From the NCBI RefSeq assembly GCF_001434255.1, contig NZ_AZEY01000068.1, positions 98,592 to 162,591 of the forward strand: a stretch of DNA of 64,000 bases. The letters are read 5' to 3'. The position numbers and the translations under genes are program-made. Shown in pieces: positions 6,065-61,022 of this stretch. The stretch is from Lentilactobacillus diolivorans DSM 14421. GTDB lineage: Bacteria; Bacillota; Bacilli; Lactobacillales; Lactobacillaceae. Within the stretch, counting starts at the first letter, position 1; every line of letters starts with the position of its first letter. Under the pieces are notes generated by a model that was given only the letters and a program-made list of their open reading frames with translations, did not search any database and was not told the DNA's origin.

Positions 6065-6195
6065 GAGTGTGCCAGAAGGCGGTTAGATTCCAGAACATAA
6101 GGCAGCCAACCCTACCATTCCGGTTCTGAATAGTAGGGTTGGCTGCCTTATGTGGCCGGAATTTGCCTTCTGGCACACGTTTCGGCTGGCTAGCC
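6065..6195 (+). repeat. Nested-hairpin repeat element, copy 1
   Basis: Outer stem GTGTGCCAGAAGGC (6067-6080) pairs perfectly with GCCTTCTGGCACAC (6165-6178). A middle stem AGATTCC/GGAATTT has one G-U. The inner stem at 6096-6115 pairs perfectly over 20 bp with 6133-6152 and is extended past a C-A mismatch to the loop CGGTTCT. Unpaired GGTT, CAGA and GGCC segments match the other copies. The right flank CACGTTTCGGCT is also shared. It fills the gap between the nitronate-monooxygenase-like gene and cvpA, opposite to both. Confidence 0.9.
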
Positions 6196-6306
6196 GAAAA
6201 CCAATCTAATATAAGCCGGGCTGAAACTATCTATATGGCTAAATCTGCTTGTTACGCCACGTTTTTGTTTGATAACGTTTCACCTAATACCAACAAAAAG
6301 CATATC

Positions 6307-7269
6307 CTAGTCCGTCATTAATCGTTCAACTAATTCTGCCACAGTTGGAACATCGTGAATCGTATCAATTCCGGTATTAACTTCAACAATTCCTTCGTCC
6401 AAATTGCCCAACCGCATTGCCGGCCGTAAGCCACCTGCTTGGTTAATTTTCGAATCCATATTCATACGCCGGCTTGGTTGCTGAAATGCTTGGGCAAACT
6501 GGCGGGCCAATTTAGTGGTGATTGATCGCTGGTCCAGTGAAACCTCTGCAACTTGATCATAGGTACTATCGACAATTAATTGTTTAGCCGATTTAGCAAG
6601 TGGTGATTCCCGGGTCACCATAAACCGGGTGCCAACGTATACCCCCTGAGCACCTAACGCGAAGGCTGCCTTCACACCACGCCGATCATTAACGCCACCG
6701 GCCGCCAACACCGGGACCGAAACCGCGTCAACAATTGCCGGGACAACGGTAAACGTCCCATATTCGCGAGCGGGCAGTAGCCCACCCTCATCCCGACCTG
6801 TTGCCACGATTAGATCAGCTCCAAGTGATTCAGCTTGCTTGGCATCTGCGACTGTCGGCGTCAAAGCCCGATAAATAATCAGTCCATGATGGGCCTTAAT
6901 CAAGTCAAACAATTCCGCGTTGACGCTTCCCACAACCGCAAAATAATGAACTTGGGCTTCAAAAAGCATTTTTAACATTTCCCGAGTAAAAACGTTATCG
7001 GCAATCCTTTCACCAGGCCGCGGAGTTGCTACCATAACACCAAACGGCCGATCAGTTAACTGTCTAACCTTAATGATTTCCTGACGCATCCGTTCTGCTG
7101 TTTCAACCGGATCACTTGTCAACTCATCCTGGCCGGCATTGGGGCCAAGGATACCCAAGCCACCGGCTTCACCAACCGCAGCCACGAGTTTCGCGTCAGT
7201 CAGCCAAGCCATGGGTGCCTGAATGATCGGATATTGAATCTTCAAAAGATCAGATACCTGTTTTGTCAT
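6307..7269 (-). CDS. Nitronate monooxygenase / FabK-like FMN enzyme
   Basis: A 320-residue TIM-barrel flavoprotein of the NMO/FabK (2-nitropropane dioxygenase-like) family. Visible motifs are YPIIQAPMAWLTDAKLVAAV at the N-terminus, GADLIVATGRDEGGL in the middle, PVLAAGGVNDRRGV and GAQGVYVGTRFM for the FMN phosphate site. Members either oxidise alkyl nitronates or act as enoyl-ACP reductase; no fatty-acid genes are adjacent, so NMO is the more likely role. The start is set at MTKQVSDLL, in agreement with family alignments; an ATG directly before it and an upstream start are possible. Confidence 0.85.
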   Translation of the reverse strand: MTKQVSDLLKIQYPIIQAPMAWLTDAKLVAAVGEAGGLGILGPNAGQDELTSDPVETAERMRQEIIKVRQLTDRPFGVMVATPRPGERIADNVFTREMLKMLFEAQVHYFAVVGSVNAELFDLIKAHHGLIIYRALTPTVADAKQAESLGADLIVATGRDEGGLLPAREYGTFTVVPAIVDAVSVPVLAAGGVNDRRGVKAAFALGAQGVYVGTRFMVTRESPLAKSAKQLIVDSTYDQVAEVSLDQRSITTKLARQFAQAFQQPSRRMNMDSKINQAGGLRPAMRLGNLDEGIVEVNTGIDTIHDVPTVAELVERLMTD

Positions 7270-7518
7270 CATTAATCGCACCATCCTATTTTTAAAGGCT
7301 TCCCAAGTAATCGACACTTATTTACATGGTCATTTTACCGCTTACATCGATAATGTAAACGATTTACACATTAGCGTTATTCAATCAAATCAGTCAAATA
7401 TAATAATATATCAGTGACATTTAATTCGATCTTTATGGACCATACGACACGCAATTCTAGTATAATAATCGTGAATACAGGGATTGGGTTTCGTCCCTTT
7501 TCTAAGGAGGCCGACAAG

Positions 7519-7734
7519 ATGGCACTATTATTCTTTCTAATATTCGGTTGGTTTTACCTACTTTTGAAAATTGGCTTCTCAATTATCAGATTTTTCGGTG
7601 GTATTCTCGCCCTATTGATTATCGTTGCCATTTTCACCAGAATCATTATCTGGGGATTCTGGCTGGGAGGCATTGCCCTGGTCGCATTTGTGGCTTGGCT
7701 GGGTTATGAAATGATCACGAGAAACGCTAGATAA
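7519..7734 (+). CDS. Small two-helix membrane protein of unknown function
   Basis: A 71-residue hydrophobic protein starting MALLFFLIFGWFYLLLK, with helices at about 2-40 and 45-62 and a short polar tail ending ITRNAR. AAGGAGG is placed eight bases before this ATG; longer in-frame starts upstream lack such a site and would add a polar segment. It stands alone between divergent and convergent neighbours and is followed by a strong terminator. Nothing in the sequence reveals its role. Confidence 0.7.
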   Translation: MALLFFLIFGWFYLLLKIGFSIIRFFGGILALLIIVAIFTRIIIWGFWLGGIALVAFVAWLGYEMITRNAR

Positions 7735-7752
7735 AAGTTTTACCTGACTATT

Positions 7753-7800
7753 AAAAGACATGGGGTCTGATTAAAATTTAATCAGACCCCATGTCTTTTT
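7753..7800. terminator. Near-perfect bidirectional terminator
   Basis: AAAAGACATGGGGTCTGATT pairs with AATCAGACCCCATGTCTTTT with T-rich ends on both strands. It separates the small membrane gene from the convergent pepN gene. Confidence 0.9.
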
Positions 7801-7889
7801 AGTCACTGGAAGCTAAGACAGGCATTTCCCATCTTAATCTCGTATTGATTTCAAGATTTATCGAATCAAAATCTAAACTGGACGGTTGA

Positions 7890-10424: not shown

Positions 10425-10582
10425 GAGTATCCTCCTAATTTTATTAGAATACCTATATTATACGACTTTTTATTCAAGAGGTAACGACCTTGAAGTCTGA
10501 CTAAAGAAATTATTATTGAATCAAAATTAGCTATCTACTTTCAACATTTATCCATTTAAGACTAAGCTATTTGCTTATCACA

Positions 10583-11530: not shown

Positions 11531-11568
11531 AGAATTAAATACTCCTTTTTACTTATTATTCCGATAAA

Positions 11569-12567: not shown

Positions 12568-12618
12568 TCTGTTTACCTACTCCTTTTAACCAATTAATTT
12601 CGAAAAATCCAACTTAGC

Positions 12619-14688: not shown

Positions 14689-14709
14689 TAAAACACCCCT
14701 CAATTAGTT

Positions 14710-14871
14710 TTACTTCTGTGTTAAATACCAACCCATAATGATATCAACACCTTTATAGGTAGACCCAACGCTCATCATAGTTGGATAACTTAAAGAAGTA
14801 AATGGACTCTTTTTACCAATTTTACAAGGCCACGAAACGCCACAGAGATAAACACTATTTACATCCAACAT
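14710..14871 (-). pseudogene. Decayed C-terminal piece of a second DUF4430 gene
   Basis: A 53-codon open frame with no plausible start context. Its translation contains VYLCGVSWPCKIGKKSP then YPTMMSVGSTYKGVDIIMGW, which matches the end of a DUF4430 domain (SGWxYSVNG..YPTxSxGSxxxxxGDIIxW), including the intact gene at 10583-11530. The N-terminal three quarters of such a gene is missing. It lies directly upstream of the 689-residue surface protein, as expected from a duplicated cluster that has decayed. Confidence 0.55.
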
Positions 14872-14892
14872 GAGATATTAGGAAAATTGCTG

Positions 14893-15062
14893 TCAACCAC
14901 TTGTTGTTTCTTGACCGATCGGCATTAATAAACCAATTTTTCTTTTGTTTGCCATGATATATTCGTGGTTAATTACAACAATCTTGTAGTGAAGAATTCG
15001 AAATTGGTAATATATTTTTTAACTAGGGATAAATTCACTAACTTGATACCAGATTTATTCAT
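14893..15062 (-). pseudogene. Decayed DUF5776-like tail of a second surface protein
   Basis: Two frames on the minus strand together restore the end of a DUF5776 repeat. One frame reads VKKYITNFEFFTTRLL then stops; a shifted frame reads INHEYIMANKRKIGLLM. The intact 689-residue protein has IKKVVNRGLTTRLQLKNGQYMTANKK at its end, matching piece by piece (KK..TTRL, N.xY.xANK). The fragment therefore looks like the frameshifted 3' end of a paralogue. Confidence 0.5.
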
Positions 15063-15069
15063 ACAAATC

Positions 15070-15118: not shown

Positions 15119-15144
15119 CTTTCATTTAGCCATTATAAAATTAA

Positions 15145-16185: not shown

Positions 16186-16223
16186 TCTAAGAGCTCTCCT
16201 TCAATTTCATCACAACATTAATC

Positions 16224-16877: not shown

Positions 16878-16906
16878 ATTTTTCCCCTTGTTTTTCAGTT
16901 ATTTGA

Positions 16907-36890: not shown

Positions 36891-36960
36891 AATATGCCTC
36901 CCCTAGCAATTTGACTAACTAGTTTATCATATTTATCTAATGAATTCAAAGATTTGTAGC

Positions 36961-37092
36961 AGAGTGTGATCACCAGCGGTTAGCTCCCAGAATATAAGCG
37001 TCCCTAACTAAATATTCCGAACCTGAATATTTAGTTAGGGACGCTTATATGGCCGGGGGCTGCTGGTGGTCGCACGTTTCGACTCGGTTGCC
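36961..37092 (+). repeat. Nested-hairpin repeat element, copy 2
   Basis: Outer stem GTGTGATCACCAGC (36964-36977) pairs with GCTGGTGGTCGCAC (37062-37075) with two G-U pairs. The middle stem is AGCTCCC/GGGGGCT, and a perfect 26-bp inner stem (36992-37017 with 37025-37050) carries the 7-nt loop CGAACCT. Conserved GGTT, CAGA and GGCC segments are present. It lies upstream of helD, opposite to it. Confidence 0.92.
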
Positions 37093-37103
37093 TTTATCAC
37101 ACA

Positions 37104-37275
37104 GAATATTTGGGCTTGAATATTTGATTAGGAGAGGTTATATGGCCGGAAGTTGCTGCTTGGATCACGTTTCAGCTTGGCTGCCTAGACATTCCTCAAA
37201 TATTCCGAACTTGAATATTTAGTTAGGGACGCTTATATGGCCGGGAGCTGCTGGTGATCGCACGTTTCCACTCGC
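37104..37275 (+). repeat. Two truncated right halves of the nested-hairpin repeat
   Basis: About 37107-37175 and 37197-37272 repeat only the right part of the element: TTGAATATTT, then TTATATGGCCGG, AGTTGCTGCTTGG or AGCTGCTGGTG, and CACGTTTC with the CT.GG..GCC flank. Their matching left arms are absent or reduced, so they are decayed or recombined copies next to copy 2. Confidence 0.75.
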
Positions 37276-37359
37276 TGGCCTTTATACTGCAGAATATTAG
37301 ATTCTTAATATCTAATAAGGAATGATCAAACCCTTACTGACTATTTCAGAGGCACAGAC

Positions 37360-39230: not shown

Positions 39231-39296
39231 AAAAATAGCTACTAAAAAAGTCGTTGTCCACAAATCTGGACAACGACTTTTTTAGTAGCTATTTTT
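39231..39296. terminator. Bidirectional terminator, 30-bp perfect inverted repeat
   Basis: 39231-39260 is the exact reverse complement of 39267-39296, with loop CAAATC. It lies between the phosphatase gene and oppF; its right arm contains the oppF stop codon and last codons. The length is unusual for a terminator. Confidence 0.92.
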
Positions 39297-49136: not shown

Positions 49137-50531
49137 ATGAAACAACAAAAGGAAGTGTCGCTTGACCGGGACCTTGGCCTCTGGTCAGCGTTATCGCTAG
49201 TAATCGGAACGATTATCGGTGCCGGTGTCTTTGTTCGCCAATCAGCCGTCTTGGATGATGCCGGCTCAACCACAATGGGGTTACTTGCATGGCTGGCGGG
49301 TGGTATTTTGACCATCACTGCCGGCTTGACGATCGCCGAAATTGCATCGCAAATGCCAGAGACCGGCGGCTTGTACGTTTATATGGAAAAGATCTACGGA
49401 AAAGTCTGGGGGTTCTTATCCGGCTGGATGCAGATCATCATTTATGGCCCGGCCATGATTGCTTCACTAGGAGCTTATTTAGCAATTTTACTTTCTGATT
49501 TTTTTGGCTTCCCAAGCAAATATAATGCATTAATTGCCATTGGCACCATCATTTTAGTCGGCATTTTAAATCTATTCTCTAATCGCTACGGCGCAACGTT
49601 TGCCATTATTACCACAGTTTGTAAATTAGTTCCGGTCGCCGCCTTGATTATTTTTGGCCTCTTTTTTGGTAACAAAAGTGCCTTTGGCCAAAGTATTTCT
49701 GAAGTTCATCAATCAGCCGGCAACTTTGGTGTTGCTATTTTGGCAACCTTATTTGCGTTCGATGGCTGGATTTTAGTTGCCAATCTGGGAGGCGAAATTA
49801 AGAATCCGCGTAAACGGCTTCCCCAAGCAATCACATTTGGAATTTTAGCTGTTTTAGTCATTTATATGTTGGTTTCATACGGTGTTTACCGTGCCGTCCC
49901 TGCTGAACAAATTCATAAATTAGGTACCGGAGCGATCCCTTACCTCGCCAATCAAGCTTTCGGAGAGATTGGCGGTAAGATCCTCAGTATCGGAATTATT
50001 ATTTCAATTGTCGGTTGTATGAATGGTAAAATTATGACCTTCCCACGAATTATGTACGCAATGGCTAAGCGTAAGCAGCTGCCATTTTCAAAAACGTTAG
50101 CTTACTTACATCCAAAATCGCATACCCCAATTTTTTCAACCATTGCCGAATTAATCATCGTCGCCATTATGATTATCTTTTCAAACGCTGATCGGTTGTC
50201 AGAATTATGTATCTTTACCGTTTATTGCTTCTACGTAATGGCATTTGTAGGTGTTTTCCTTCTTCGGAAACGGAATCCCAACACAAAGCGCGTTTTCTCA
50301 ACACCATTATTCCCACTCACACCGATTGTCGCAATTTTTGGTTCACTATTTGTCATTGGCAGTGAAATCATGTCAGACTTGCCGGGTGTCCTCACATCAT
50401 TTATCTTTGTTGCTGTCGGCGTCCCTGTTTTCTATTATGAAGTTAAGAAAAACGGTATTGTCGACATTAAAAATGAAGATGCCCCAATCGACGAAGATGA
50501 TCAAGATAATTCAGTAAAGAGTCAAAACTAA
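49137..50531 (+). CDS. APC-family amino-acid permease, LAT/SteT-like
   Basis: A 464-residue membrane protein with about 12 helices. The first helix has GTIIGAGVF and the consensus amphipathic region NPRKRLPQAI follows helix 6. Relatives include SteT serine/threonine exchangers and other L-type antiporters; the substrate is unclear. GAGGAAG precedes the ATG. It follows hflX after 37 bases in the same direction. Confidence 0.88.
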   Translation: MKQQKEVSLDRDLGLWSALSLVIGTIIGAGVFVRQSAVLDDAGSTTMGLLAWLAGGILTITAGLTIAEIASQMPETGGLYVYMEKIYGKVWGFLSGWMQIIIYGPAMIASLGAYLAILLSDFFGFPSKYNALIAIGTIILVGILNLFSNRYGATFAIITTVCKLVPVAALIIFGLFFGNKSAFGQSISEVHQSAGNFGVAILATLFAFDGWILVANLGGEIKNPRKRLPQAITFGILAVLVIYMLVSYGVYRAVPAEQIHKLGTGAIPYLANQAFGEIGGKILSIGIIISIVGCMNGKIMTFPRIMYAMAKRKQLPFSKTLAYLHPKSHTPIFSTIAELIIVAIMIIFSNADRLSELCIFTVYCFYVMAFVGVFLLRKRNPNTKRVFSTPLFPLTPIVAIFGSLFVIGSEIMSDLPGVLTSFIFVAVGVPVFYYEVKKNGIVDIKNEDAPIDEDDQDNSVKSQN

Positions 50532-50595
50532 ATCTGAGTGCATCAATTAGCATTCATCCCAGAACGTAACAAAATAAAATCAATATTTCTTAAAC

Positions 50596-50640
50596 AAAAA
50601 CCAGTTAGTGACTGACTTCAATCAGTCCTGACTGGTTTTT
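50596..50640. terminator. Bidirectional terminator after the permease gene
   Basis: AAAAACCAGT and ACTGGTTTTT arms with an inner GACTGA/TCAGTC stem. It separates the permease gene from the repeats before the lacI-type gene. Confidence 0.85.
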
Positions 50641-50675
50641 GCTGTCTCCAAGGAACCTATTCCTTTATTATTTGC

Positions 50676-50762
50676 TGCCACAGCTTCCGGCCGTATAAGC
50701 CACTCAAACTAATCTTCCAAAATCGGGAATATTGATGTTGGTTTGGGCCTCCGAGTTGAAAC
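50676..50762 (-). repeat. Truncated nested-hairpin repeat (right half) beside copy 3
   Basis: On the minus strand the right part of the element is repeated: TATTCCCGATTTTGGA, TTAGTTTGAGTGGCTTATAC, GGCCGGAAGCTGTGGCA. Its left inner arm is diverged. It stands directly next to copy 3 in the same orientation. Confidence 0.7.
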
Positions 50763-50878
50763 GTGCAAAAGTGCCACAGCTTCCGGCCATATAAGCCGCT
50801 CAAACTAATATTCCAAAATCGGGAATATTAGTTTGAGCGGCTTATATTCTGGAAGCTAACCGTGGCTTTTTGCACTCT
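50745..50878 (-). repeat. Nested-hairpin repeat element, copy 3
   Basis: Minus orientation. A perfect 26-bp inner stem (50789-50814 with 50822-50847) has the 7-nt loop CGATTTT. The middle stem AGCTTCC/GGAAGCT is perfect. The outer stem GTGCAAAAAGCCAC pairs with GTGGCACTTTTGCAC with one bulge. GGTT, CAGA and GGCC are conserved. The stop codon of the lacI-type gene is the TAG of its conserved CGGTTAG. Confidence 0.92.
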
Positions 50879-51854
50879 CCCTCTCTGTAATCCCAATCCC
50901 CGTATACAGCAAGTCAAACTGATCCAGCTTCCCCCCTAACAGCGTCTGCATTCCCTTGATGCCCATTTCTCGAAACGACTGCGTGACACTTGTTATTCTC
51001 GGTCGGACAATGTTACACAAATAAGTGCCATCGATGCTGACCACTGATAGATCGTTTGGTACCTTAACATTAAAGGCCTGAGCTTGATTAAGGATCCCAA
51101 TTGCTGCCAAGTCACTTGAGGCAATTACTGCCGTTAGCTGAGTCTCTTCACCATATTGTTTCATTGCCAGCACGCCATCTTCATACGCAAAATCGCCATC
51201 ACTGACCCAATCAGGGCTTGTGGGAAGTTGGTACTCATCCATCGCACGCCGATACCCCGCTAACCTTAACTGGCCGGTAAACGATTCCAAATCAGCTGCC
51301 GCAAAGCCAATTTTGACGTGACCTTTCTCAATTAGATAAGTTGTTGCTTGATAACCGATTTTAAAATCATCTGACGAAATAAACGGAAAGCGATGGTTGC
51401 GAAAACAAATTGATAGAAATAAAAATGGAATATTCGCCGACCTTAGCAAATTATCGTTGCTGGGATCCAAATCAATCGCTACCAATAAAATTCCTAGAAC
51501 AGACCGTTCAATTACGGTTTCAAGGGCTCGCTTCTGTAATTTGGCATTCTTCTCGCCAGCATACAAAATGATCACATTCAAATCTTTTTGCATGGCTTGC
51601 TCCTGAATGCCATCAATGATCTGATCCGCAAAATTCGTTTGGGTTGAACTCACAATCACGGCAATGGTTTTGCTGGTCTTGGTAACCAGTTCAACTGCAC
51701 TTGTATTCTTCTGATATCCAAGTTTTTTAGCCGCCCGATGAACCCTTCTGGCGGTCTTTTCTGAATAAAAATCGCTTTGTCCGGATAAGACACGCGAAAC
51801 AGTTGCCGGTGACACCCCCGCTAACTCAGCAATATCCTTAATTGTGGCTCCCAT
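50856..51854 (-). CDS. LacI-family transcriptional regulator
   Basis: A 332-residue repressor. The HTH is MGATIKDIAELAGVSPATVSRVLSG (1-25), then the hinge, and a periplasmic-binding-like effector domain (VIVSSTQTNFADQIIDGIQE..). It ends GITERESAKSHG, close to the usual RES.K end of the family. Start at MGATIKDIA with AAAGGA upstream; an extended in-frame reading of 56 codons has no such site. Its 3' end overlaps the left end of repeat copy 3. It faces a divergent promoter that carries its likely operator and drives the isomaltose genes. Confidence 0.94.
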   Translation of the reverse strand: MGATIKDIAELAGVSPATVSRVLSGQSDFYSEKTARRVHRAAKKLGYQKNTSAVELVTKTSKTIAVIVSSTQTNFADQIIDGIQEQAMQKDLNVIILYAGEKNAKLQKRALETVIERSVLGILLVAIDLDPSNDNLLRSANIPFLFLSICFRNHRFPFISSDDFKIGYQATTYLIEKGHVKIGFAAADLESFTGQLRLAGYRRAMDEYQLPTSPDWVSDGDFAYEDGVLAMKQYGEETQLTAVIASSDLAAIGILNQAQAFNVKVPNDLSVVSIDGTYLCNIVRPRITSVTQSFREMGIKGMQTLLGGKLDQFDLLYTGIGITERESAKSHG

Positions 51855-51925
51855 GATAACCGCTTCCTTTCCCGTAATCTCGGACACTTCGGCTCTTATC
51901 TTACCACAATAAACTTGTATATTTC

Positions 51926-51939
51926 CACAAACGTTTGTG
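51926..51939. promoter_or_regulatory. LacI-type operator in the divergent promoter
   Basis: Perfect 14-bp palindrome CACAAACGTTTGTG, with the CG centre typical of LacI-family operators. It lies 72 bases upstream of the repressor start and 275 bases before the transporter gene. Confidence 0.75.
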
Positions 51940-51956
51940 TTGGTGATATAAAAGAG

Positions 51957-51971
51957 TTGCAAGCGATTGCA
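51957..51971 (+). promoter_or_regulatory. CcpA cre site
   Basis: TTGCAAGCGATTGCA matches WTGNAARCGNWWNCA at every position, so catabolite repression is likely. A 17-base palindrome TGATGATATTATCATCA follows at 51974-51990. Confidence 0.8.
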
Positions 51972-52213
51972 ATTGATGATATTATCATCACTGTAGAAAT
52001 GAATGAAACCGTTTTCTAACAATTCATGAATTGGCCAAGTTGTTAGGAATCATTCATTCAAAGTTGTTTTTAGAACTGTTTGAAGGGGATTGTTTCTTCA
52101 TTAGATTGTCCCAGCTCAATTAACATGTTTAATTTCAGTCAGGTCAACACACTGATCAACGAACCTTCAACGTTCAATCATTTATAAGAACCATTTACTA
52201 GGGAGGAATTTTC

Positions 52214-53623
52214 ATGATTGCTAAAGAACAAATTGGTAAGGCCGCCAACACAGCCTCTGCCCAATCTGAAACTAAAACGCAACATAAAGGATTACCAACA
52301 TTAAAATTAAGCACCATATTCGCAATGACATTTGGCTTCTTCGGTGTCAATATGGCCTTCTCACTCCAATCCTCACAAATGGGACGGATTTTTCAGACCA
52401 TTGGTGCCGACCCAACTAAACTGGGATTCTTCTTTATTCTTCCGCCACTTGCGGGAATGGTCGTTCAGCCTTTAATTGGAAAATATTCAGACCAAACTTG
52501 GAATCGATTTGGCCGACGGATGCCTTACTTAATGATTGGTGCACCAATTGCTGCACTTGTCATGATTCTGTTACCCAATGCCGGTTCATTCGGCTTTGGG
52601 TACGCCTCATTAGCAGCACTAATGTTTGGTGCAATTACGATTCTCTTCATGGATCTCTCATCAAACGTCTGCATGCAGCCATTCAAGATGATTATCGGTG
52701 ATATGGTTAATGAGAGCCAAAAAGACAAAGCATGGTCTTGGCAACAATCATTTTCAAACCTTGGTGGCGTGCTTGCAACCATCTTTCCATTTCTGTTAAC
52801 CTGGATTGGTGTTTCTAATGTTGCCCCTAAAGGTGAAGTACCGCTGTCAGTTAAGATGGCCTTTTACATTGGTGCTGGTGTCCTATTATTGACATCACTC
52901 TACACAATCTGGTCAGTTAAAGAGTACGATCCAATGACTTATGCCCGTTATCATGGGATTCCAGAAGATAAAAAGAAAGAAAAGCAACCGAGTCTTTGGC
53001 ACTTAGTTAAAACAGCTCCTCGTTCCTTCTGGGAAGTATCATTTGTTCAATTATTCGACTGGTTCGCATTTCAATATATCTGGACATACGGAACCGGTGC
53101 AATTGCCAAAAACGTTTGGAATACAAGTAATCCAGCATCTGCCGGTTATCAGGCTGCCGGAAACTGGTTTGGCATTTTAACCTGTGTTGAATCATTAGCT
53201 GCCGTTATCTGGGGCTTCATGGTTCTGTCACACACAAAGCCCACTCAACGTAAGTTCTGGTTCAGAATTGGTTTAATCATGGGTGGTGCCGGTATGGTTT
53301 GGGTTTTCTTCGTTCATTCACAGATGCTGCTCATCGTGCCGTTTGCTTTGATTGGTATCAGTTATCTGACCATGCAGACTGAAGCCCTCTCACTATTTAC
53401 CGAATCACTTCACGGTGAAAACGAAGGTGCTTATCTGGGATTATTCAACTGCGGTATCTGCTTACCACAAATTATCGCATCAGTTGCCAGCTTCGCAATC
53501 TTCCCATTAATCGGCAAATCAATGCCTGGTATGATCGTAATTGCCGGAATCATGATGTTTATCGGCGCCTTAGCCGTCAGCGTCATTCACCCAGCCTACT
53601 CGGCAAAAACAGCAACAAAGTAA
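52214..53623 (+). CDS. MFS sugar:proton symporter, SLC45/maltose-type
   Basis: A 469-residue membrane protein with 12 helices. The conserved loop KYSDQTWNRFGRRMPYLMIG matches the SLC45/sucrose-maltose symporter group, as do MGRIFQTIGADP and the C-terminal ALSLFTESLHGENEGAYLGLFN. It is cotranscribed with the oligo-1,6-glucosidase gene 39 bases downstream, so the likely cargo is isomaltose or a similar alpha-glucoside, imported intact. Confidence 0.85.
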   Translation: MIAKEQIGKAANTASAQSETKTQHKGLPTLKLSTIFAMTFGFFGVNMAFSLQSSQMGRIFQTIGADPTKLGFFFILPPLAGMVVQPLIGKYSDQTWNRFGRRMPYLMIGAPIAALVMILLPNAGSFGFGYASLAALMFGAITILFMDLSSNVCMQPFKMIIGDMVNESQKDKAWSWQQSFSNLGGVLATIFPFLLTWIGVSNVAPKGEVPLSVKMAFYIGAGVLLLTSLYTIWSVKEYDPMTYARYHGIPEDKKKEKQPSLWHLVKTAPRSFWEVSFVQLFDWFAFQYIWTYGTGAIAKNVWNTSNPASAGYQAAGNWFGILTCVESLAAVIWGFMVLSHTKPTQRKFWFRIGLIMGGAGMVWVFFVHSQMLLIVPFALIGISYLTMQTEALSLFTESLHGENEGAYLGLFNCGICLPQIIASVASFAIFPLIGKSMPGMIVIAGIMMFIGALAVSVIHPAYSAKTATK

Positions 53624-53662
53624 ACTAAATTAATTTAAAATAAAAATGGAGGTTCAATTAAC

Positions 53663-55330
53663 ATGACACACAAATGGTGGCAAGATTCAGTCGTTTATCA
53701 AATTTATCCAATGAGTTTTCAAGACAGCAACAATGATGGCATTGGTGATTTACCAGGAATCAAACAACGACTTCCTTATTTGAAGAAATTAGGCGTTGAT
53801 GTCATTTGGTTAAACCCAATTTACGAGTCCCCTAATAAGGACAATGGTTATGATATTGCTGATTATGAAGCTATTAACCCAATGTATGGCACAATGGCCG
53901 ACTTCGATCAATTGCTTGAAGCGACACACAAAAGTGGCATCAAATTATTGATGGACCTGGTTGTTAACCATACTTCCGATCAACACAGATGGTTCCAAGA
54001 AAGTAAAAAATCACAGGATAATCAATATGCCGACTACTATATCTGGCGTGATCCGGTTGATGGTCATGAACCTAACAACTGGGGAGCTGCTTTTGGCGGT
54101 TCTGCATGGACCTATGTTCCTGAACGTGGCCAATACTACTTACATTTATTTGCACCCGGCCAACCTGATTTGAACTGGGAGAACCCCGACGTTCGAGAAT
54201 CTATTTGGAGCTTAATGCGTTTCTGGTTGGACAAAGGCGTTGACGGTTTCAGAATGGACGTCATTAATCTGATTTCCAAACCAGCCGGGTTACCAGATGC
54301 CCCAGCTCCTGCCAACTATGCGACTGTTGAAAAGATGGTTGCTGACGGACCAAAGCTTAACGATTATTTGCATGAGATGAACGACAAAGTCCTTTCCCAC
54401 TATGATGTGATGACAGTGGGTGAAATGCCGAGCTCCAAACCTGAAGATGCAATTGAATATACAGGGCTAAAGAGCAATGAATTAAACATGGTCTTCCAAT
54501 TTGAACATGTTTCATTGAGTTCAAATCCTGATAAGCGTCTCGGAAAATGGAACGATGCCCCAGTTAAACTTACTGATTTAAAGCGGGCACTATCTCGTTG
54601 GCAAGTTGAATTGGATGGTCAGGGTTGGAACAGTCTTTACTGGAACAATCACGATCAGCCACGGGCTGTTTCCCGCTTTGCCAACGACGATCCTAAATAT
54701 CGGGTTCGGGCAGCTAAACTGCTCGGAACGACCCTTCACATGATGCAGGGAACTCCTTATGTCTATGAAGGTGAAGAACTCGGTATGACCAACGTTCACT
54801 ACACAAGCCTAGATCAGTATGAAGACTTGGAATCGATCAACAGCTATCACGAATTAGTCGATGAAAATAAATTTGTCGATGGTAAGACAATGCTGAAGTA
54901 TCTAGCAAACGTCTCCCGTGATAACGCCCGGACACCAATGCAATGGGATGCCAAGGAAAATGCCGGTTTCTCCAAGGTCAAACCTTGGTTCGCATTAAAT
55001 CCAAATTACACTGAAATTAACGTCGCCGGTGAACTTGAAGATCCTGAATCAGTCTTTTATTACTACCAAAAGCTGATTGCTCTGCGTCACGATTCCGAAT
55101 TAATCCGTTATGGGACCTATGAGGAAATCGATCCGCAAGATGCCGAGGTATTTGCTTATCGTCGTCACTATGAAGACCAGACATTACTAGTCCTTAGCAA
55201 CTTTACCGATCAAACTGTGACCCGCGACTACGATCAGGCAAACGCAACTGAGCGCCTAATCGGTAATTACGAGGATGATCAAGGTACAACACTTCGACCA
55301 TATGAAAGTAAGGTTTACGTTTTTAAATAG
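53663..55330 (+). CDS. malL: Oligo-1,6-glucosidase (GH13_31)
   Basis: A 555-residue cytoplasmic alpha-glucosidase. GH13 catalytic residues: Asp199 in GVDGFRMDVINLISK, Glu254 in MTVGEMPSS, Asp331 in NNHDQPRAVSR. The residue after the nucleophile is Val200, which in Bacillus cereus oligo-1,6-glucosidase and yeast isomaltase marks alpha-1,6 specificity, in contrast to Thr or Ala in maltases. So it likely hydrolyses isomaltose and isomalto-oligosaccharides. GGAGG lies before the ATG. The gene ends four bases before repeat copy 4. Confidence 0.92.
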   Translation: MTHKWWQDSVVYQIYPMSFQDSNNDGIGDLPGIKQRLPYLKKLGVDVIWLNPIYESPNKDNGYDIADYEAINPMYGTMADFDQLLEATHKSGIKLLMDLVVNHTSDQHRWFQESKKSQDNQYADYYIWRDPVDGHEPNNWGAAFGGSAWTYVPERGQYYLHLFAPGQPDLNWENPDVRESIWSLMRFWLDKGVDGFRMDVINLISKPAGLPDAPAPANYATVEKMVADGPKLNDYLHEMNDKVLSHYDVMTVGEMPSSKPEDAIEYTGLKSNELNMVFQFEHVSLSSNPDKRLGKWNDAPVKLTDLKRALSRWQVELDGQGWNSLYWNNHDQPRAVSRFANDDPKYRVRAAKLLGTTLHMMQGTPYVYEGEELGMTNVHYTSLDQYEDLESINSYHELVDENKFVDGKTMLKYLANVSRDNARTPMQWDAKENAGFSKVKPWFALNPNYTEINVAGELEDPESVFYYYQKLIALRHDSELIRYGTYEEIDPQDAEVFAYRRHYEDQTLLVLSNFTDQTVTRDYDQANATERLIGNYEDDQGTTLRPYESKVYVFK

Positions 55331-55332
55331 CC

Positions 55333-55470
55333 AGAGTGGCCCAGCAAGCGGTTAGATCCCGGCCACGTTTCGGCTAAATAACAAGGCCAACAAGGTATTC
55401 CCGGTTTTGGAATATCAAGTTAGGGGGCTTATATGGCCGGAGCCTGCTTGCTGGGCCACGTTTTCTACTA
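55333..55470 (+). repeat. Nested-hairpin repeat element, copy 4 (inner left arm lost)
   Basis: The outer stem GTGGCCCAGCAAGC (55336-55349) pairs perfectly with GCTTGCTGGGCCAC (55446-55459). CGGTTAGATCCC and the loop TTCCCGGTTTTGGAA and the right arm with TTATATGGCCGG are kept, but the inner left arm is replaced by unrelated sequence with a CACGTTTCGGCT insert. A decayed tail extends to about 55566. It lies four bases after the glucosidase stop codon. Confidence 0.8.
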
Positions 55471-55763
55471 TGTAACAAGTTCAATAAGATATTTCCGGTT
55501 TTGAGTATTTGGATAATTCGGTTACACGGTCGGAAGCTGCCCTTTGTCCCGCATTTTTGCTTGATAACAATCGTGTTTACACTAACTGAGACTGGGTAAA
55601 ATGACTATTATCCCAACCTCTCCCGTTGTGTAATCACGACTAATATTAGATGAACGTGAGATGGGAAACTAGTTTCTCGTCGCCTATCCGTAGCTCATTT
55701 TCGTAACCACCCGGCCGAACGCGTTATAATGGCGGTAACCAACATTAAGAGGAAGGTGATTGC
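55471..55763. other. Decayed repeat tail and leader of the mgtC-like gene
   Basis: To about 55566 a degraded repeat copy (TATTTCCGGTTTTGAGTATTT, GGTCGGAAGCTGCC). Then a hairpin GAGACTGGGTAAAA/TTATCCCAACCTCTC at 55586-55622, with the MgtC leader and AGGAAGGTGAT before the start codon. I recognise no magnesium riboswitch motif. Confidence 0.45.
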
Positions 55764-56447
55764 ATGGACTATTGGCTCTACCAAATGGAATGGGTTCTCC
55801 GTTTGTTCGTTGCGGCTATTTGTGGCGGCATGGTCGGTTTTGAACGGAAAGCCCGCCTAAAGACGGCTGGCATTCGAACCCATATGTTGGTGGCTGTCGG
55901 CTCAGCTTTATTTATGATCATCTCAAAATATGGCTTTTTCGACGTGACGACTCGCTCTGATATTGGGCTTGACCCTTCCCGAATCGCGGCTGGCGTTGTT
56001 ACCGGAATTGGATTTATCGGTGCTGGTGCCATCATGACCCGTAACCACAAAATTGATGGTTTAACGACAGCTGCCGGCCTATGGTCCACGGCTGCCATTG
56101 GATTGGCGATTGGTGCTGATATGTTTATCATCGGAATCGCCGGGACATTGTGCATCCTCATCACTCAAACCATTGTTCGCCGAATTCGGGCTTTGAAACG
56201 GTATCCCAACCGTTCACTTCTTAGATTACAAATCACCGTTACCGGAAAATTAAAGGATATTGATAAACTTCCGATCCGCCTCCAAGACTTAGGAAGCATC
56301 AACACTCAAATGCGGATTTTAACTTATAATCCGGACTCCTTTTCGCTGGAAGTTCGTTTAAGATTAAAAAAGCCACGAAATCCCGATTCGTTTATCAAGG
56401 ATATGGCTAAATTCAAGGATATTACCCATATTGAAGTTATCGATTGA
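55764..56447 (+). CDS. mgtC: MgtC/SapB-family membrane protein
   Basis: A 227-residue protein with four to five N-terminal helices (about 8-155) and a soluble C-terminal domain. The signature is VAAICGGMVGFERKARLKTAGIRTHMLVAVGSALF and GFIGAGAIMTRNHKIDGLTTAAGLWSTAAIGLAIG. MgtC proteins are linked to low-magnesium survival and modulate other membrane proteins. AGGAAGGTGAT precedes the ATG. Confidence 0.92.
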   Translation: MDYWLYQMEWVLRLFVAAICGGMVGFERKARLKTAGIRTHMLVAVGSALFMIISKYGFFDVTTRSDIGLDPSRIAAGVVTGIGFIGAGAIMTRNHKIDGLTTAAGLWSTAAIGLAIGADMFIIGIAGTLCILITQTIVRRIRALKRYPNRSLLRLQITVTGKLKDIDKLPIRLQDLGSINTQMRILTYNPDSFSLEVRLRLKKPRNPDSFIKDMAKFKDITHIEVID

Positions 56448-56615
56448 GCTTTTAATCATTGCTGGCTGATTAAAAGCCTTGGTGGTAAACTCATTTAGTG
56501 GCGTTACAATCTTTTACAATTTCATATTCAAGCCCAAAAATATCAGCCATCATTTTAACGTTTTAGTTAATTGCATGGCTGTTTTTCTGGAGATAAATTG
56601 ACATGAGGTGATCAT

Positions 56616-57515
56616 TTGAAAAAATACGCCGCAATTTTTGTTGCGCTTGGTGCCATCAGCTACGGCATTCCCGGATCACTCTTCAAAATGGCCCGCGCTC
56701 AAGGCGTTCATGATGGGATGCTACTATGTCTCACCTTCTTAATCGCCTGGCTTTTCTTTGTCGTGGCCAGTGCGTTCCTTAAACCAGCCAAACGAAACGT
56801 CCCTGATAAACGAGAAAAATGGCTGGTGATTCTCTCTGGCAGTTCCATGGGCTTCACCAATACATTCTACCTGCTCTCGCTTTCATATGTGCCGGTTGCG
56901 GTAGCTGCGGTTATGATGATGCAGTCGGTTTGGTTAGCCATTATTTTTTCCAGTGTTTTTCATCGACGTTGGCCGTCCCTGCTTCAAGTATTCAGTATTG
57001 GAATTGTTCTAATTGGAACCGTCTTGGCAACCGGTCTTGTCCCAATCCACCAGACAGTTTCACTGGTTGGCCTAAGTCTTAGTTTCCTGGCTGCGCTGGC
57101 CTATGCACTGACTATCCAGTTCACGGGCGGGATTGGTCAGGATTTACATCCATTAACGAAGGCCCGATTAATGAGCTTTGGAGCGCTATTGCTAATTATC
57201 ATAATCTGGGGACATACCTTGTTTGAACCTCAAAGCTTGATCATTTCACTAAAATGGGGTGGCATCACATCATTTTTTGCAATGATTTTTCCACTAACCA
57301 GCTTTTCCTACTTCATGCCCCACCTCGCCATTGGCATTGGACCGATTATCTCATCATTAGAATTACCGTCTTCGGTGATTTTTGCCTTTTTCTTACTGGC
57401 AGAAGCGGTATCAGGATCTCAAGTCATCGGTGTTGGCTTGATTATTATAGCCGTCATCATCACCAACCTGATTCCTGTGTTGATGTATCGACGAAAGTAC
57501 CAAACACATAACTGA
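56616..57515 (+). CDS. DMT-superfamily (EamA-like) transporter
   Basis: A 299-residue membrane protein with about ten helices in two inverted halves; the first half ends near FITFLATGL. Starts with TTG, preceded by GAGGTGAT. It is of the drug/metabolite exporter family; the substrate is unknown. It is convergent with the glutamine-type ABC operon. Confidence 0.83.
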   Translation: MKKYAAIFVALGAISYGIPGSLFKMARAQGVHDGMLLCLTFLIAWLFFVVASAFLKPAKRNVPDKREKWLVILSGSSMGFTNTFYLLSLSYVPVAVAAVMMMQSVWLAIIFSSVFHRRWPSLLQVFSIGIVLIGTVLATGLVPIHQTVSLVGLSLSFLAALAYALTIQFTGGIGQDLHPLTKARLMSFGALLLIIIIWGHTLFEPQSLIISLKWGGITSFFAMIFPLTSFSYFMPHLAIGIGPIISSLELPSSVIFAFFLLAEAVSGSQVIGVGLIIIAVIITNLIPVLMYRRKYQTHN

Positions 57516-57549
57516 TTTTTTCAATAGCATATCAAAATACCACCATACA

Positions 57550-57596
57550 AATAAGCCAGTCAAATGCCTAAAATGAGGACATTTGACTGGCTTATT
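57550..57596. terminator. Bidirectional terminator, 17-bp perfect stem
   Basis: AATAAGCCAGTCAAATG pairs perfectly with CATTTGACTGGCTTATT around a 13-nt loop, between the DMT gene and the end of the ABC operon. Confidence 0.9.
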
Positions 57597-57632
57597 AATT
57601 TATAAAATCATTTCTGCTAATAGTTAATTTGC

Positions 57633-58361
57633 TTACCGTTCCGCTGATTCGGCCACTTCTTCAGCCTGCTTAGCTTTTTTGCTGTTACTCTGACCCATTC
57701 GGTGATCCAGATATTCTGAAAGCAACGACAGCGAATAACAAACAATGAAGTACATAACAGCCAGTGCCAAGAACATTGGAATCGTGTAATTCGTATTTTG
57801 ACCATAAATAATCTGGGCATGATTCATCAGATCCGGCAAGACAATAATGGTTGCCAATGAGGTATCCTTTACCAGTGAAATAAACTGACTAACAATGGCT
57901 GGAATCATGTTTTTAACGGCCTGTGGCAGGATAATAAACCGGAGTGCCTGCCAATACGATAATCCATTGGCTCTGGCACCTTCCATTTGACCAGTTGGAA
58001 TTGAGACAATCCCAGCCCGGACGATTTCAGCGACCATCGCTGATTCGAAGATCGCCATCGCAATTACGGAGGCCCAAATTGGCGCTGGTTTAAACCCAAT
58101 TTGTGGCAATCCAAAATACGTAAAGAAGATAATTAAAATTAGCGGTAGGTTCCGGATAATATCAATCACAAAGCCGACAATTGCCGATACATATTTAATT
58201 TGAACGTACCGAATTACTCCCAAAATCAAACCAAGAATATAACTCAGAATGATTGAGAGAACCGATACAACAACCGTTACCCAAGCTCCTTCAAGAAGGA
58301 ACCGGATATTGACCCATGAGTATGCGCCTAACACATTGAACATATCAAATAGATGCAGCAT
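57633..58361 (-). CDS. glnP: Polar amino-acid ABC transporter permease (GlnP-type)
   Basis: A 242-residue permease with five helices and the EAA motif EGARANGLSYWQALRFIILPQAVKNMIP. It is the last gene of a four-gene glutamine/glutamate-type uptake operon, 15 bases after the other permease. A polar Lys/Glu-rich tail (GQSNSKKAKQAEEVAESAER) follows the last helix. Confidence 0.92.
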   Translation of the reverse strand: MLHLFDMFNVLGAYSWVNIRFLLEGAWVTVVVSVLSIILSYILGLILGVIRYVQIKYVSAIVGFVIDIIRNLPLILIIFFTYFGLPQIGFKPAPIWASVIAMAIFESAMVAEIVRAGIVSIPTGQMEGARANGLSYWQALRFIILPQAVKNMIPAIVSQFISLVKDTSLATIIVLPDLMNHAQIIYGQNTNYTIPMFLALAVMYFIVCYSLSLLSEYLDHRMGQSNSKKAKQAEEVAESAER

Positions 58362-58376
58362 AGTTTAGTTCCCCCT

Positions 58377-59015
58377 TTATGCCAATTTCTTTTCAAGATA
58401 ACGCATATAATAACTGAGCGGCAAAGTTAGAATCAGGTATAAAACACCGACACACAAGTAGGTACTCATACTTTGCAACGAATCAGATGCAATAACGTTT
58501 CCTTGATACATCAGATCAAAGCCGGCAACAAAGGCTAGAACCGATGAATTTTTAACCAAGTTGATAAATTGGTTGCCTAATGGTGGAATGACATAGCGGA
58601 AGGCTTGTGGTAAAACAATGTAGCGCATTGCTTGCCAGAACGACAATCCATTAGCCCGTGATCCTTCCATTTGACCGGGATCAACTGATTGAATACCGGA
58701 CCGCACCGTCTCAGCGATAAACGCTGATGAATAGAGAATCAGGCCAACTGTTCCGGCCGCGAACCCACTAATTTCAACAATATACATTGGAATAACAACG
58801 TAGAAGAACATCGTAATAACCAAAAGTGGAATATTTCGAAAAAGTTCAATATATGCTTTAGCAACGACTCTTGCAAATTTGTTAGGCATGACTTCCATAA
58901 TCGCAAATCCAGAACCAATAATTAATGCAAAGATCAATGCGATAATACTGCACAGAAGAGTCTGACCTAATCCATAAAGGAGCTCGCCACCATAATTTTG
59001 AAAAATACTAATCAT
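58377..59015 (-). CDS. glnM: Polar amino-acid ABC transporter permease (GlnM-type)
   Basis: A 212-residue permease with the EAA motif EGSRANGLSFWQAMRYIVLPQAFRYVIP. It forms the translocation pore with the downstream permease. Its first codons overlap the end of the binding-protein gene by four bases. Confidence 0.92.
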   Translation of the reverse strand: MISIFQNYGGELLYGLGQTLLCSIIALIFALIIGSGFAIMEVMPNKFARVVAKAYIELFRNIPLLVITMFFYVVIPMYIVEISGFAAGTVGLILYSSAFIAETVRSGIQSVDPGQMEGSRANGLSFWQAMRYIVLPQAFRYVIPPLGNQFINLVKNSSVLAFVAGFDLMYQGNVIASDSLQSMSTYLCVGVLYLILTLPLSYYMRYLEKKLA

Positions 59016-59842
59016 CGTTCAGCCCCCTTAAAGTCAAATCCTTTAACCTTGTGGAACCACTTGTACAATAATTTATTGTACTGACCAGAGTTTTCAACCT
59101 TGGTTAACGCTTGATTCAGCGCATCACGGAACTTACCTTGACCTTTATCAACGGCAATTCCATATGGTTCCTTAGTAAACGTCCCGCCAACAACTGAATA
59201 ACCGGGATTTTCAATTGACATCCCATATAAAATACCGTTATCAGTTGTCAACGCTTGTCCTTGGCCAGACTTTAAGGCGGTTAAAGCTTGAGAATAATCA
59301 GTTAGTTGAAGGACTTTAGCCTTTGGCGCGAATTTCTTAATGTTTTGAACCGAATTGGAACCAACAACGCCTAAGACCACGTCACCCTTATGATTCAAGT
59401 CACGAACATTTTTAATTGGGCTGCCATTCTTAACTAGAATTGCTTGGCCGGCATCAAAGTATGATCGTGAAAAATCAACCTGCTCAGCTCGTTGTGGCGT
59501 AATTGTCATGGTTGCCATAATGGCATCAATATTTCCGTTTCGAAGCAATGGCATTCGGGTTTGACTCGTTACTTGAATAAACCGTGCCTTGCCATCCTTG
59601 CCAAGAATCTGCTTAGTCATTGCTTTGGCTAAATCAATTTCAAACCCCTTAATCTGGTTATCCTTAACATCCATTAGACCAAACAGCTTCGTATCAGCTT
59701 TTACTCCCCAAGTAATGGTCTTGGATTGCCGGTCGTCGCGTAACACATCCTTTTTTGATCCACTGCTGCTACATGCACCCAGCGAAACAATCATCACGGC
59801 TAGGGCAATTAATAACCCAATCTTTGAAAAGATCCTCTTCAT
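59012..59842 (-). CDS. glnH: Glutamine/glutamate-type binding lipoprotein
   Basis: A 276-residue SBP_bac_3 lipoprotein with lipobox VSLGAC. The ligand-domain motifs ITWGVKADTKLFGLMDVK, GFEIDLAKAMTKQIL, VDFSRSYFDAGQAILV are typical of the polar amino acid-binding proteins. It delivers the amino acid to the two permeases. The gene lies 26 bases after the ATPase gene. Confidence 0.92.
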   Translation of the reverse strand: MKRIFSKIGLLIALAVMIVSLGACSSSGSKKDVLRDDRQSKTITWGVKADTKLFGLMDVKDNQIKGFEIDLAKAMTKQILGKDGKARFIQVTSQTRMPLLRNGNIDAIMATMTITPQRAEQVDFSRSYFDAGQAILVKNGSPIKNVRDLNHKGDVVLGVVGSNSVQNIKKFAPKAKVLQLTDYSQALTALKSGQGQALTTDNGILYGMSIENPGYSVVGGTFTKEPYGIAVDKGQGKFRDALNQALTKVENSGQYNKLLYKWFHKVKGFDFKGAER

Positions 59843-59868
59843 GATGAAACCTCCCGATAAACTTATTT

Positions 59869-60609
59869 TTAATGCGTGATAATTTTGCCAAGGAATTGAC
59901 GTGCACGTTCATTGGAGGGTTCACCATCAAAGAATTTCTCACTACTATCATCTTCCAGAATCTGCCCATCATCCATGAAAATAACCCGGTTGGCAACTTC
60001 ACGTGCAAATCCCATTTCATGGGTTACAACCAACATGGTCATGTCTGAATCGTTGGCGATATCCTTCATAACGTTCAAAACATCATCGATCATTTCAGGA
60101 TCCAACGCACTGGTTGGTTCATCAAACAAAAGACACTTGGGCTTCATTGCTAATGAACGCGCAATCGCGATTCGTTGTTGCTGACCACCGGATAATTGTG
60201 CCGGATATTTGTTTGCCTGACTTTCAAGCCCAACTTGGTCCAACAACTGCCTGGCAACCTTCTTATTTTCTTCCTCAGGTCGATGAAGCACAATTCGAGG
60301 TGCCAACATGATATTTTCCAAAATTGTCTTATTTGCATACAAGTTAAAGTGTTGGAACACCATGCCAACATTTTTTCGGATTCGGTTCATGTCGGTCTTC
60401 CGATCTGCCAAATCCTGGCCGTTAACAATCAACTTACCCTCTTGGATTCTTTCAAGCCCATTAACAGTGCGAATTAACGTTGACTTACCAGATCCGGAAG
60501 GTCCGATTAAAACAACGGTTTCCCCCGCCTCAATCTTCAAATTAATATCTTTTAAAGCATGGAAACTGCCGTAGTACTTTTGTACATCTTGAAATTCGAT
60601 CATTGCCAT
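59869..60609 (-). CDS. glnQ: Polar amino-acid ABC transporter ATPase (GlnQ)
   Basis: A 246-residue ATPase with Walker A GPSGSGKSTL, signature LSGGQQQRIAIARSLA and Walker B CLLFDEPTSALD. First gene of the operon glnQ-glnH-glnM-glnP. Start MAMIEFQDV, with GGAGG eight bases upstream; an ATG ten codons earlier precedes that site. Confidence 0.94.
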   Translation of the reverse strand: MAMIEFQDVQKYYGSFHALKDINLKIEAGETVVLIGPSGSGKSTLIRTVNGLERIQEGKLIVNGQDLADRKTDMNRIRKNVGMVFQHFNLYANKTILENIMLAPRIVLHRPEEENKKVARQLLDQVGLESQANKYPAQLSGGQQQRIAIARSLAMKPKCLLFDEPTSALDPEMIDDVLNVMKDIANDSDMTMLVVTHEMGFAREVANRVIFMDDGQILEDDSSEKFFDGEPSNERARQFLGKIITH

Positions 60610-60671
60610 GTCATTTTCCTCCAATACCTTTAGGCTCATTATTAAAATTGCCTAAGAATGTTCTTGTATCC

Positions 60672-60700
60672 ATATTATGTTAAAAAACGCCGTAGGTCAA
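60672..60700 (-). promoter_or_regulatory. Promoter of the glutamine-type ABC operon
   Basis: Minus strand: TTGACC, 17 bp, TAATAT. It lies 63 bases upstream of glnQ and is the clearest sigma-A-type promoter in the window. Confidence 0.75.
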
Positions 60701-60890
60701 AAAATTGTAACAAAAATTTGATACCCGTGTCACATCTTCTGCCAATATAGGCATAAAGTTCAAAACTGGCCCAAACTAGCTGAAAAGAGTGGTTTAGGCC
60801 AGGCGTTAATTAATTAGAATATCCGAATACTTTAACTTGAATATCTAATTATAATTCACATTTAGGGGAAAGCAAAGAGAATTTGTGGAA

Positions 60891-61022
60891 AGAGTGTGCA
60901 AGCAGACGGTCAGCTCCCAGAATATAAGCGTTTCAATCTGATATTCCCGGTTTTGGAATATCAGATTGAAACGCTTATATGGCCGGGAGTTGTCTGCTTG
61001 CACACGTTTCTGCTCGGCAGCC
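60891..61022 (+). repeat. Nested-hairpin repeat element, copy 5
   Basis: Outer stem GTGTGCAAGCAGAC (60894-60907) pairs perfectly with GTCTGCTTGCACAC (60992-61005). Middle stem AGCTCCC/GGGAGTT with one G-U. Perfect 26-bp inner stem (60922-60947 with 60955-60980) with 7-nt loop CGGTTTT. GGTC, CAGA and GGCC are conserved. It lies upstream of glnQ, opposite to the genes. Confidence 0.93.

Follow-up and report, generated by a model that had tools for sequence, protein, structure and literature searches.

What keeps the arms of a hairpin complementary while its sequence changes from copy to copy? This question is raised by five related intergenic elements of about 130 bp in Lentilactobacillus diolivorans DSM 14421, which lie in a stretch of 64,000 nucleotides of contig NZ_AZEY01000068.1 (positions 98,592 to 162,591); we call this whole stretch the window, and use its own numbering below. 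An earlier reading of the letters of the window (the sequence-only reading) had taken the elements either for a family of structured RNAs or for mobile elements that need hairpin folding to spread, a proposal that is supported by covariation, by a bias towards one kept strand and by the dispersal of the copies. Our analysis suggests, on balance, that the family consists of old, high-copy structured elements that probably act as RNA, or at least persist as such, in the untranslated regions at the 3′ side (3′UTRs) of mRNAs. What is new here is that the elements often begin right where a gene of the same strand has its stop codon, whereas a mirror test at their other end is nearly empty in Lactobacillaceae.

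The hairpin and its variation in the window

By folding, the shared plan consists of a 14-bp outer stem, a 4-nt bulge on the left, a 7-bp middle stem, an AGA × GGCC internal loop, an inner stem of about 26 bp and a 7-nt terminal loop. The sequence-only reading had ascribed one plan to all five loci, and folding confirmed it in full at four of them: 6065-6195, 36961-37092, 60891-61022 and 50745-50878. The last of these is a minus-strand copy, in whose outer stem there are mismatches and a bulge of one base. At the fifth locus, 55333-55470, only the outer stem agrees with the plan. It is perfect, and a piece of the right end (GGCCACGTTTCGGC) stands in place of the left inner arm. This rearranged copy, element 4, scores 56 bits with the covariance model R1 described below, against 129, 129, 132 and about 144 bits (element 5) for the others. 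The left bulge had been given as GGTT throughout, but 60891-61022 has GGTC at this place, and only the other window elements have GGTT. Finally, the outer stems had been described as wholly different between loci, which holds for the window copies but not for the family, since 47 of 62 outer stems in the L. diolivorans genome have at most 2 mismatches in 11 positions from one at another locus.

Covariation and the kept strand

Two alignments were used. Alignment A2, the basis of model R1, contains 41 copies (31 from L. diolivorans, 10 from relatives), and alignment A5, the basis of model R2, combines 24 copies of other Lactobacillaceae genera with 8 of Lentilactobacillus subfamilies, 32 in all. 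In A2, changes on both sides are found in 36 of the 46 pairs (388 cells), and 97.1% of cells are paired, compared with 75.9% in shuffles, none of 500 of which was as high. Shifting the partner by 1-3 bases lowers pairing to 35-45%. In A5, both-side changes occur in 43 of the 46 pairs (499 cells), with a covariation score of 0.894 versus 0.212, and again none of 500 shuffles was as high. A5 was aligned to the model and hence leans towards structure, whereas A2 was aligned by MAFFT without structure, though its structure was derived from its own sequences. The covariation that had been noticed in five copies thus extends far beyond them.

The age of the copies gives this pairing its weight. Among 64 copies in the L. 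diolivorans genome (2016 pairs), no pair is at least 97% identical; the best reaches 93.5% and the median is 65%. The absence of near-identical copies, while their arms still pair, speaks for lasting selection, and as the copies are diverged, near-perfect arms are no sign of youth.

Wobble pairs can further tell which strand is folded, since any strand-blind process should produce G·U and A·C in equal numbers. We counted them in 55 distinct elements of the L. diolivorans genome, which remained of the 64 after two had been removed (N or identical core) and seven could not be anchored by the script. The inner stem (22 pairs) has 1168 Watson-Crick cells, 38 G·U, 2 A·C and 2 other, and the middle stem 370, 10, 2 and 3, respectively. 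The outer stem has 673, 22, 18 and 57, inflated by out-of-register copies. The aligned set agrees, with 941, 38, 3 and 2 for the inner stem and 527, 7, 7 and 33 for the outer. In the inner stem, G·U is seen at 12 positions and A·C at 2, and the 38:2 ratio corresponds to a binomial p of 1.5e-9, which is too small, as the cells are not independent (related copies, clustered G·U). The excess of G·U implies that, in the inner part, it is the fold of the GAGTG...CACGTTTC strand that is kept.

Size and reach of the family

In the L. diolivorans genome (3.26 Mb), blastn with element 1 gave 48 matches, and the model search at least 138. Within 464 kb of it (the window and 20 further stretches; 100 match rows) there are 56 places with an element, or about one per 8 kb. 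Extrapolated to the whole genome, this would amount to some 390 copies, a guess that leans upwards because the stretches were picked where matches were known.

Beyond this genome, R1 matches are present in 19 of 24 Lentilactobacillus genomes and in at least 62 of 151 Lactobacillaceae genomes (21 of 40 genera). R2 matches are present in at least 44 of 198 genomes of the order (24 of 54 genera, seven families) and in at least 15 of 250 genomes of the class, L. diolivorans included, most of these being weak. Only 22 (family), 16 (order) and 13 (class) candidates per genome were scored, and these counts miss weak matches. Among the order-level matches listed, many loci retain all three stems (outer, middle and inner) together with the internal loop, a left bulge of 4 nt with AG next to it, and a right end that reads CACGTTT or CACCGTTT; at others this plan is not seen at the printed position. 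A second Lentilactobacillus subfamily (AGTGAGCGGAG...GCAGCTGTCCTAA), seen at four loci in L. dabitei, L. rapi, L. kisonensis and L. fungorum, has the same fold, and in gene direction starts with TAGGACAGC at or near some stop codons. As a separate observation, seven class-level loci in other Bacilli have hairpins of the form AAAAGCGGAAGC...GTTTAG...GGAGCTAGACA with a similar plan, and at three of these a sense stop codon lies at +1.

Neither the window nor 20 related loci contain a match to an Rfam 15 family at or above the gathering score, and sub-threshold matches to microRNA-like families were judged to be chance matches of long hairpins. Among the titles and abstract openings listed in literature searches, none described this hairpin family in lactobacilli. 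A paper on the Staphylococcus aureus ftnA 3′UTR (PMC9093591) matched the motif strings, but the motif does not occur in the passages of it that were retrieved.

Position behind stop codons

We called a place stop-anchored if an open reading frame (ORF) of at least 100 codons, with a plain ORF rule serving as gene caller, has its end at −6 to +30 relative to where the model begins, and applied the mirror test at the right end. On the sense strand, 27 of 56 places in the L. diolivorans genome are stop-anchored, compared with 1 in the mirror test. The corresponding numbers are 21 of 47 versus 0 in the genus, 14 of 37 versus 0 in other Lactobacillaceae genera, and 5 of 27 versus 2 in other families, where the relatives' loci are the best-scoring ones, one to a few per genome, rather than a random sample. 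Because the element contains stop codons near its sense start, genes reading into it may tilt the comparison towards this side. An earlier test on subsets used 51 of the 56 L. diolivorans places (five with 28.6-38.1 bits had been dropped) and 41 of the 47 genus places. Outside the genus, a test of 55 of the 64 places with the wider limit of −10 to +30 gave 15 of 31 versus 0 in other Lactobacillaceae and 5 of 24 versus 2 in other families. None of the five dropped places is sense-anchored, and one is mirror-anchored.

The anchoring is narrow. Of the 27 stops in the L. diolivorans genome, 22 end at −5 to +5, so that the stem starts 1 to 11 nt past the stop codon, and the other five lie at +7 to +26. 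Three genes use the TAG within the bulge (GGTTAG) as their stop codon, among them the LacI-type gene at 50856-52022, which takes its stop from element 3 (offset +26). In element 4, AGAGTG begins 2 nt past the stop of the alpha-amylase-family gene at 53663-55330. Gene direction agrees with this pattern: among the 49 of 51 L. diolivorans places where both neighbours could be determined, the upstream gene has the same direction in 41 (20 co-oriented, 21 convergent) and the opposite direction in 8, whereas about 48% would be expected for random direction, as estimated from 190 gaps of at least 150 bp. In three of five plasmid records inspected with their annotation, matches begin 3 nt 3′ of fabI (Loigolactobacillus backii), 8 nt 3′ of an AraC-type gene (E. 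raffinosus) and 23 nt 3′ of aspT (L. plantarum); in the remaining two, the match lies 132 nt 3′ of a LacI-type gene or where there are no annotated features. Three further plasmid records contain the same fabI locus.

A proposed structure at the 3′ end of mRNAs

The gene-sense, stop-anchored position favours an RNA role in the 3′ region of mRNAs. Taken together with the selection on one strand and the age of the copies, it makes an mRNA 3′ structure the best reading: the family would be a 3′UTR hairpin module that was dispersed long ago and is related in kind to EFAR or other repeats of Enterococcus of the miniature inverted-repeat transposable element (MITE) type. The hairpin would be transcribed as the first structure past the stop codon. 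Its outer stem would lie under the terminating ribosome and re-form once the ribosome leaves, and the long stem could then protect or define the 3′ end of the mRNA against 3′-5′ exonucleases, or be cut by RNase III. The conserved bulge and internal loop may be the handle for a protein. The copies would have spread long ago through a mobile, MITE- or EFAR-like process that landed at transcript ends, and would also have been carried on plasmids, with tandem right halves (see below) as a by-product gained and lost in units of about 90 bp. REP elements of Escherichia coli near stop codons have been reported to stall ribosomes.

In its broadest form, the proposal would be that a single RNA class of Lactobacillales, and perhaps of Bacilli, that is absent from Rfam sits immediately 3′ of the stop codon in many genes of each genome and links the end of translation to what becomes of the mRNA 3′ end. 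A terminating ribosome would keep the outer stem open for as long as it occupies the stop codon, and on its departure a long hairpin with an invariant bulge for protein binding would form. We offer this wider idea as a speculation and think it rather unlikely.

Several results weigh against a role in mRNA. The sequence-only reading had held that all four of its wobble pairs fit RNA of one strand; in the larger set, such a bias is seen in the inner and middle stems (38 versus 2, and 10 versus 2) but not in the outer stem, where G·U and A·C are balanced (7 versus 7 in the aligned set, 22 versus 18 in the 55 elements). Even in the inner stem, G·U accounts for only about 3% of the pairs, below what selection on RNA alone might predict. 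Beyond Lactobacillaceae, stop anchoring is weak. Of the window elements, 3 and 4 are anchored in this way, but 1, 2 and 5 have no adjoining sense ORF end, and in the L. diolivorans genome 11 of 51 places have none within 100 nt. A low-scoring subgroup in this genome is anchored in 4 of 12 cases and often lies 48-91 nt past the stop. Lastly, the left bulge of the second Lentilactobacillus subfamily is on the strand opposite to the preceding gene, and this subfamily also occurs in divergent (promoter) regions.

Dispersal and the possibility of a mobile element

A serious rival is that the family is an EFAR-type mobile element whose mobility needs one folded strand (single-stranded DNA or RNA), with terminator hairpins behind genes as targets that would provide both the position and the direction, so that selection on the fold would serve mobility rather than the host gene; we consider this possible, if doubtful. 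Dispersal as such is real, since related copies occur at unrelated loci and on plasmids, and orthologous sites are found both filled and empty. Similar sequence is present in 115 plasmid records with an Enterococcus-type query and in 27 with the window query. In orthologous 3′ flanks, the element is present behind mgtC in 4 of 11 species (as different subfamilies), behind the gene at 57633 in 3 of 11, and behind the amylase gene in only the window species, of eight. The few orthologous pairs show presence and absence together with joint change of the arms, by point changes or by replacement. Between L. dabitei and L. rapi, one site has flanks of 0.89 and an element of 0.71 identity, with both arms changed and both copies folding. 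At another, L. dabitei and L. kisonensis share an element of 0.99 identity in flanks of 0.88, and the site is empty in L. rapi. L. otakiensis and L. parabuchneri had too few copies in 400 kb to provide orthologous pairs.

EFAR insertion uses stem-loops as targets, with loss of most of the target stem. If terminator hairpins were the targets here, terminators should be lost where elements are found, and orthologous sites tend in this direction: an intrinsic terminator was found within 150 nt in 17 of 22 empty sites, and within 420 nt in 4 of 8 filled sites, one of these four being inside the element. In the L. diolivorans genome, the loss is not clear. A third finder found terminators within 150 nt of 45 of 130 control genes, in 8 of 146 intragenic pieces and, for genes with an element, in the 450 nt past that element in 7 of 29. 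It was used beside a strict finder, judged too strict (terminators behind 4 of 39 elements, a terminator-like part inside 1 of 39), and a lax finder, judged too lax because it counts element stems (within 200 nt, 96 of 132 control genes versus 18 of 29 element genes; 27 of 29 within 600 nt).

Other results speak against mobility as the explanation. Outer stems of the present family are shared between loci (the 47 of 62 noted above), and thus are not remnants of each target terminator. The 64 diverged copies include no near-identical pair, and no tested driver fits, so that the mobiliser may have been lost. Y1 transposases (PF01797) occur in 7 of 24 genus genomes, L. diolivorans included (three matches), but are absent from four high-copy genomes, and one is present in a genome that has no element match; a driver of the RAYT (REP-associated tyrosine transposase) kind was therefore rejected, as its distribution does not track copy number. 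The reverse transcriptase domain RVT_1 (PF00078) occurs in 8 of 24 genus genomes, but in neither L. diolivorans nor six high-copy genomes, and a group II or retron-like driver likewise does not fit copy number. A MITE of a DDE element is not favoured either: constant terminal inverted repeats are absent, as the outer arms vary between copies, with compensation, past the outermost three pairs. The two explanations may also hold together, if the family spread as a mobile element and was kept as a 3′UTR structure.

Mutational processes and terminators as unlikely alternatives

Template switching at quasi-palindromes or arm-to-arm conversion could keep the arms complementary with no selection for the fold, and would fit the 1168 Watson-Crick cells among 1210 in the inner stem despite a median identity of 65% between copies, the balanced outer-stem wobbles and the orthologous site at which both arms changed together (element 0.71, flanks 0.89). 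However, we regard such a mutational process as very improbable. Under it, the internal loop and the bulge of 4 nt should disappear, yet both recur over many genera, and it would yield neither 38 G·U versus 2 A·C nor the position behind stop codons.

It is scarcely credible that the element is itself a transcription terminator or a double-faced variant of one, although it occupies the usual place of terminators, is often not followed by one and gives some matches (in a scan of 50000-62000, one weak sense match at the right end of element 4, 55442-55456 with tail CACGTTTTCT, and antisense matches to the inner stems of elements 3 and 5; a terminator-like part in 1 of 39 elements; several inner stems by the lax finder). 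Its sense right end is CACGTTTC, without a U-tract, and in 7 of 29 cases, as also at mgtC of L. kisonensis, there is a strong terminator downstream of the element.

Features of the window and tandem right halves

Some elements of the window are followed by additional right halves (Table 1). In the L. diolivorans genome, 36 of the 52 elements with enough flank have one to three of these, mostly 80-95 bp apart. The left arm pairs with the first right arm at least as well as with any extra one in 34 of the 36, and strictly best in 31. At the fabI locus, there are three right arms at 95-bp spacing in L. diolivorans and one in the L. backii plasmid, where the aligned pieces are 97.9 and 98.9% alike, which suggests that units grow and shrink by direct-repeat recombination or slippage.

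Table 1. Hairpin elements and right-half units in the window
Feature	Position	Strand	Evidence and remarks
Element 1, full hairpin	6061..6196	+	Fold, R1 132 bits; no nearby sense ORF end on the 5′ side
Element 2, full hairpin	36958..37093	+	Fold, R1 129 bits; no nearby sense ORF end on the 5′ side
Two more tandem right-half units (loop, right arm, CACGTTTC, spacer; period about 93)	37094..37281	+	Tandem Repeats Finder (TRF) array 37010-37274; right arms at 37144 and 37239
Element 3, full hairpin	50745..50881	-	Fold, R1 129 bits; Pfam for the neighbouring gene
Element 4, rearranged copy with intact outer stem and substituted left inner arm	55330..55478	+	Fold, R1 56 bits
Degenerate additional right-half unit 3′ of element 4	55479..55570 (approximate limits)	+	Sequence reading
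Element 5, full hairpin	60888..61023	+	Fold, R1 about 143-144 bits; no nearby sense ORF end on the 5′ side
Additional right-half unit 3′ of element 5	61024..61115 (approximate limits)	+	Right arm at 61069

The fabI locus shows two further features. The stretch common to the L. diolivorans genome and the plasmid of L. backii, a beer bacterium, is 98-99% identical, suggesting recent plasmid transfer. In plasmids of Pediococcus damnosus and L. backii (loci L224-L226, at about 1573-1578), the fabI element is interrupted some 75-80 nt in, near the loop, with an ISL3-family transposase gene next to it, and in plasmid pL12002-4 the hairpin is intact. An insertion sequence thus appears to target the tip of the hairpin.

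Other long hairpins in the window, at 7701-7837, 39235-39292 and 57543-57601, have weak model scores of 17-30 bits. A short hairpin, GACTGGG...CCCAACCTC, lies at 55580-55625, 3′ of element 4, and presumably resembles the GTGGGACA repeats of Gram-positive genomes.

Significance and comparison with known systems

To our knowledge, the interspersed palindromes of Gram-positive genomes have been described species by species. If the mRNA 3′ structure proposed here is real, a single fold with extreme covariation, stop-anchored in gene sense in many Lactobacillaceae, would bring a large part of the DNA between genes in lactic acid bacteria, among them food strains, under one name and give it a testable role, and would raise the question of which protein reads the constant bulge. 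The covariance model is ready for use in annotation.

The repeats most like the present family are EFAR, said to have been described by Venditti et al. in 2007, which are reportedly palindromic, intergenic and of high copy, with a variable number of modules and two adjacent hairpins. By description, the two are alike in belonging to Lactobacillales, and sequence similar to the present family is found in Enterococcus records. They seem to be set apart, also by description, by their folds, which reportedly are two adjacent hairpins in EFAR but a single long hairpin of 136 nt with a left bulge here, to which the downstream units might add a second. BOX elements of Streptococcus pneumoniae form hairpins with a variable number of tandem inner units. 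The present family resembles them as a hairpin repeat with tandem units, but its extra units are right-half copies outside the hairpin, and its stems vary with compensation. In integron attC sites, structure rather than sequence is conserved and extrahelical bases lie on one side; the present family differs in its fixed stem lengths and its position behind stop codons.

The passages of PMC3733652 at hand name EFAR a MITE of Enterococci, and within them neither deep covariation nor stop-codon anchoring is stated for it. In the corresponding passages of PMC2267715 (Petrillo et al. 2008), which also tabulate the size and copy number of BOX, Efa-1 of E. faecalis is an intergenic, structured element with a 163-bp model, 65 copies (18 complete) and a double hairpin. 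By description, the present family is likewise intergenic and structured, but has one hairpin. Repetitive extragenic palindromic (REP) sequences and bacterial interspersed mosaic elements (BIMEs) with RAYT are described in the same passages of PMC3733652 as lying near the 3′ ends of genes, some of them giving the gene its TAG stop, with G·T pairs read as a sign of transcription. The fold of the present family is much longer and Y1 transposases do not track its copies, but its place at 3′ ends, its TAG stops and its wobble pairs are features that it has in common with REP and BIME.

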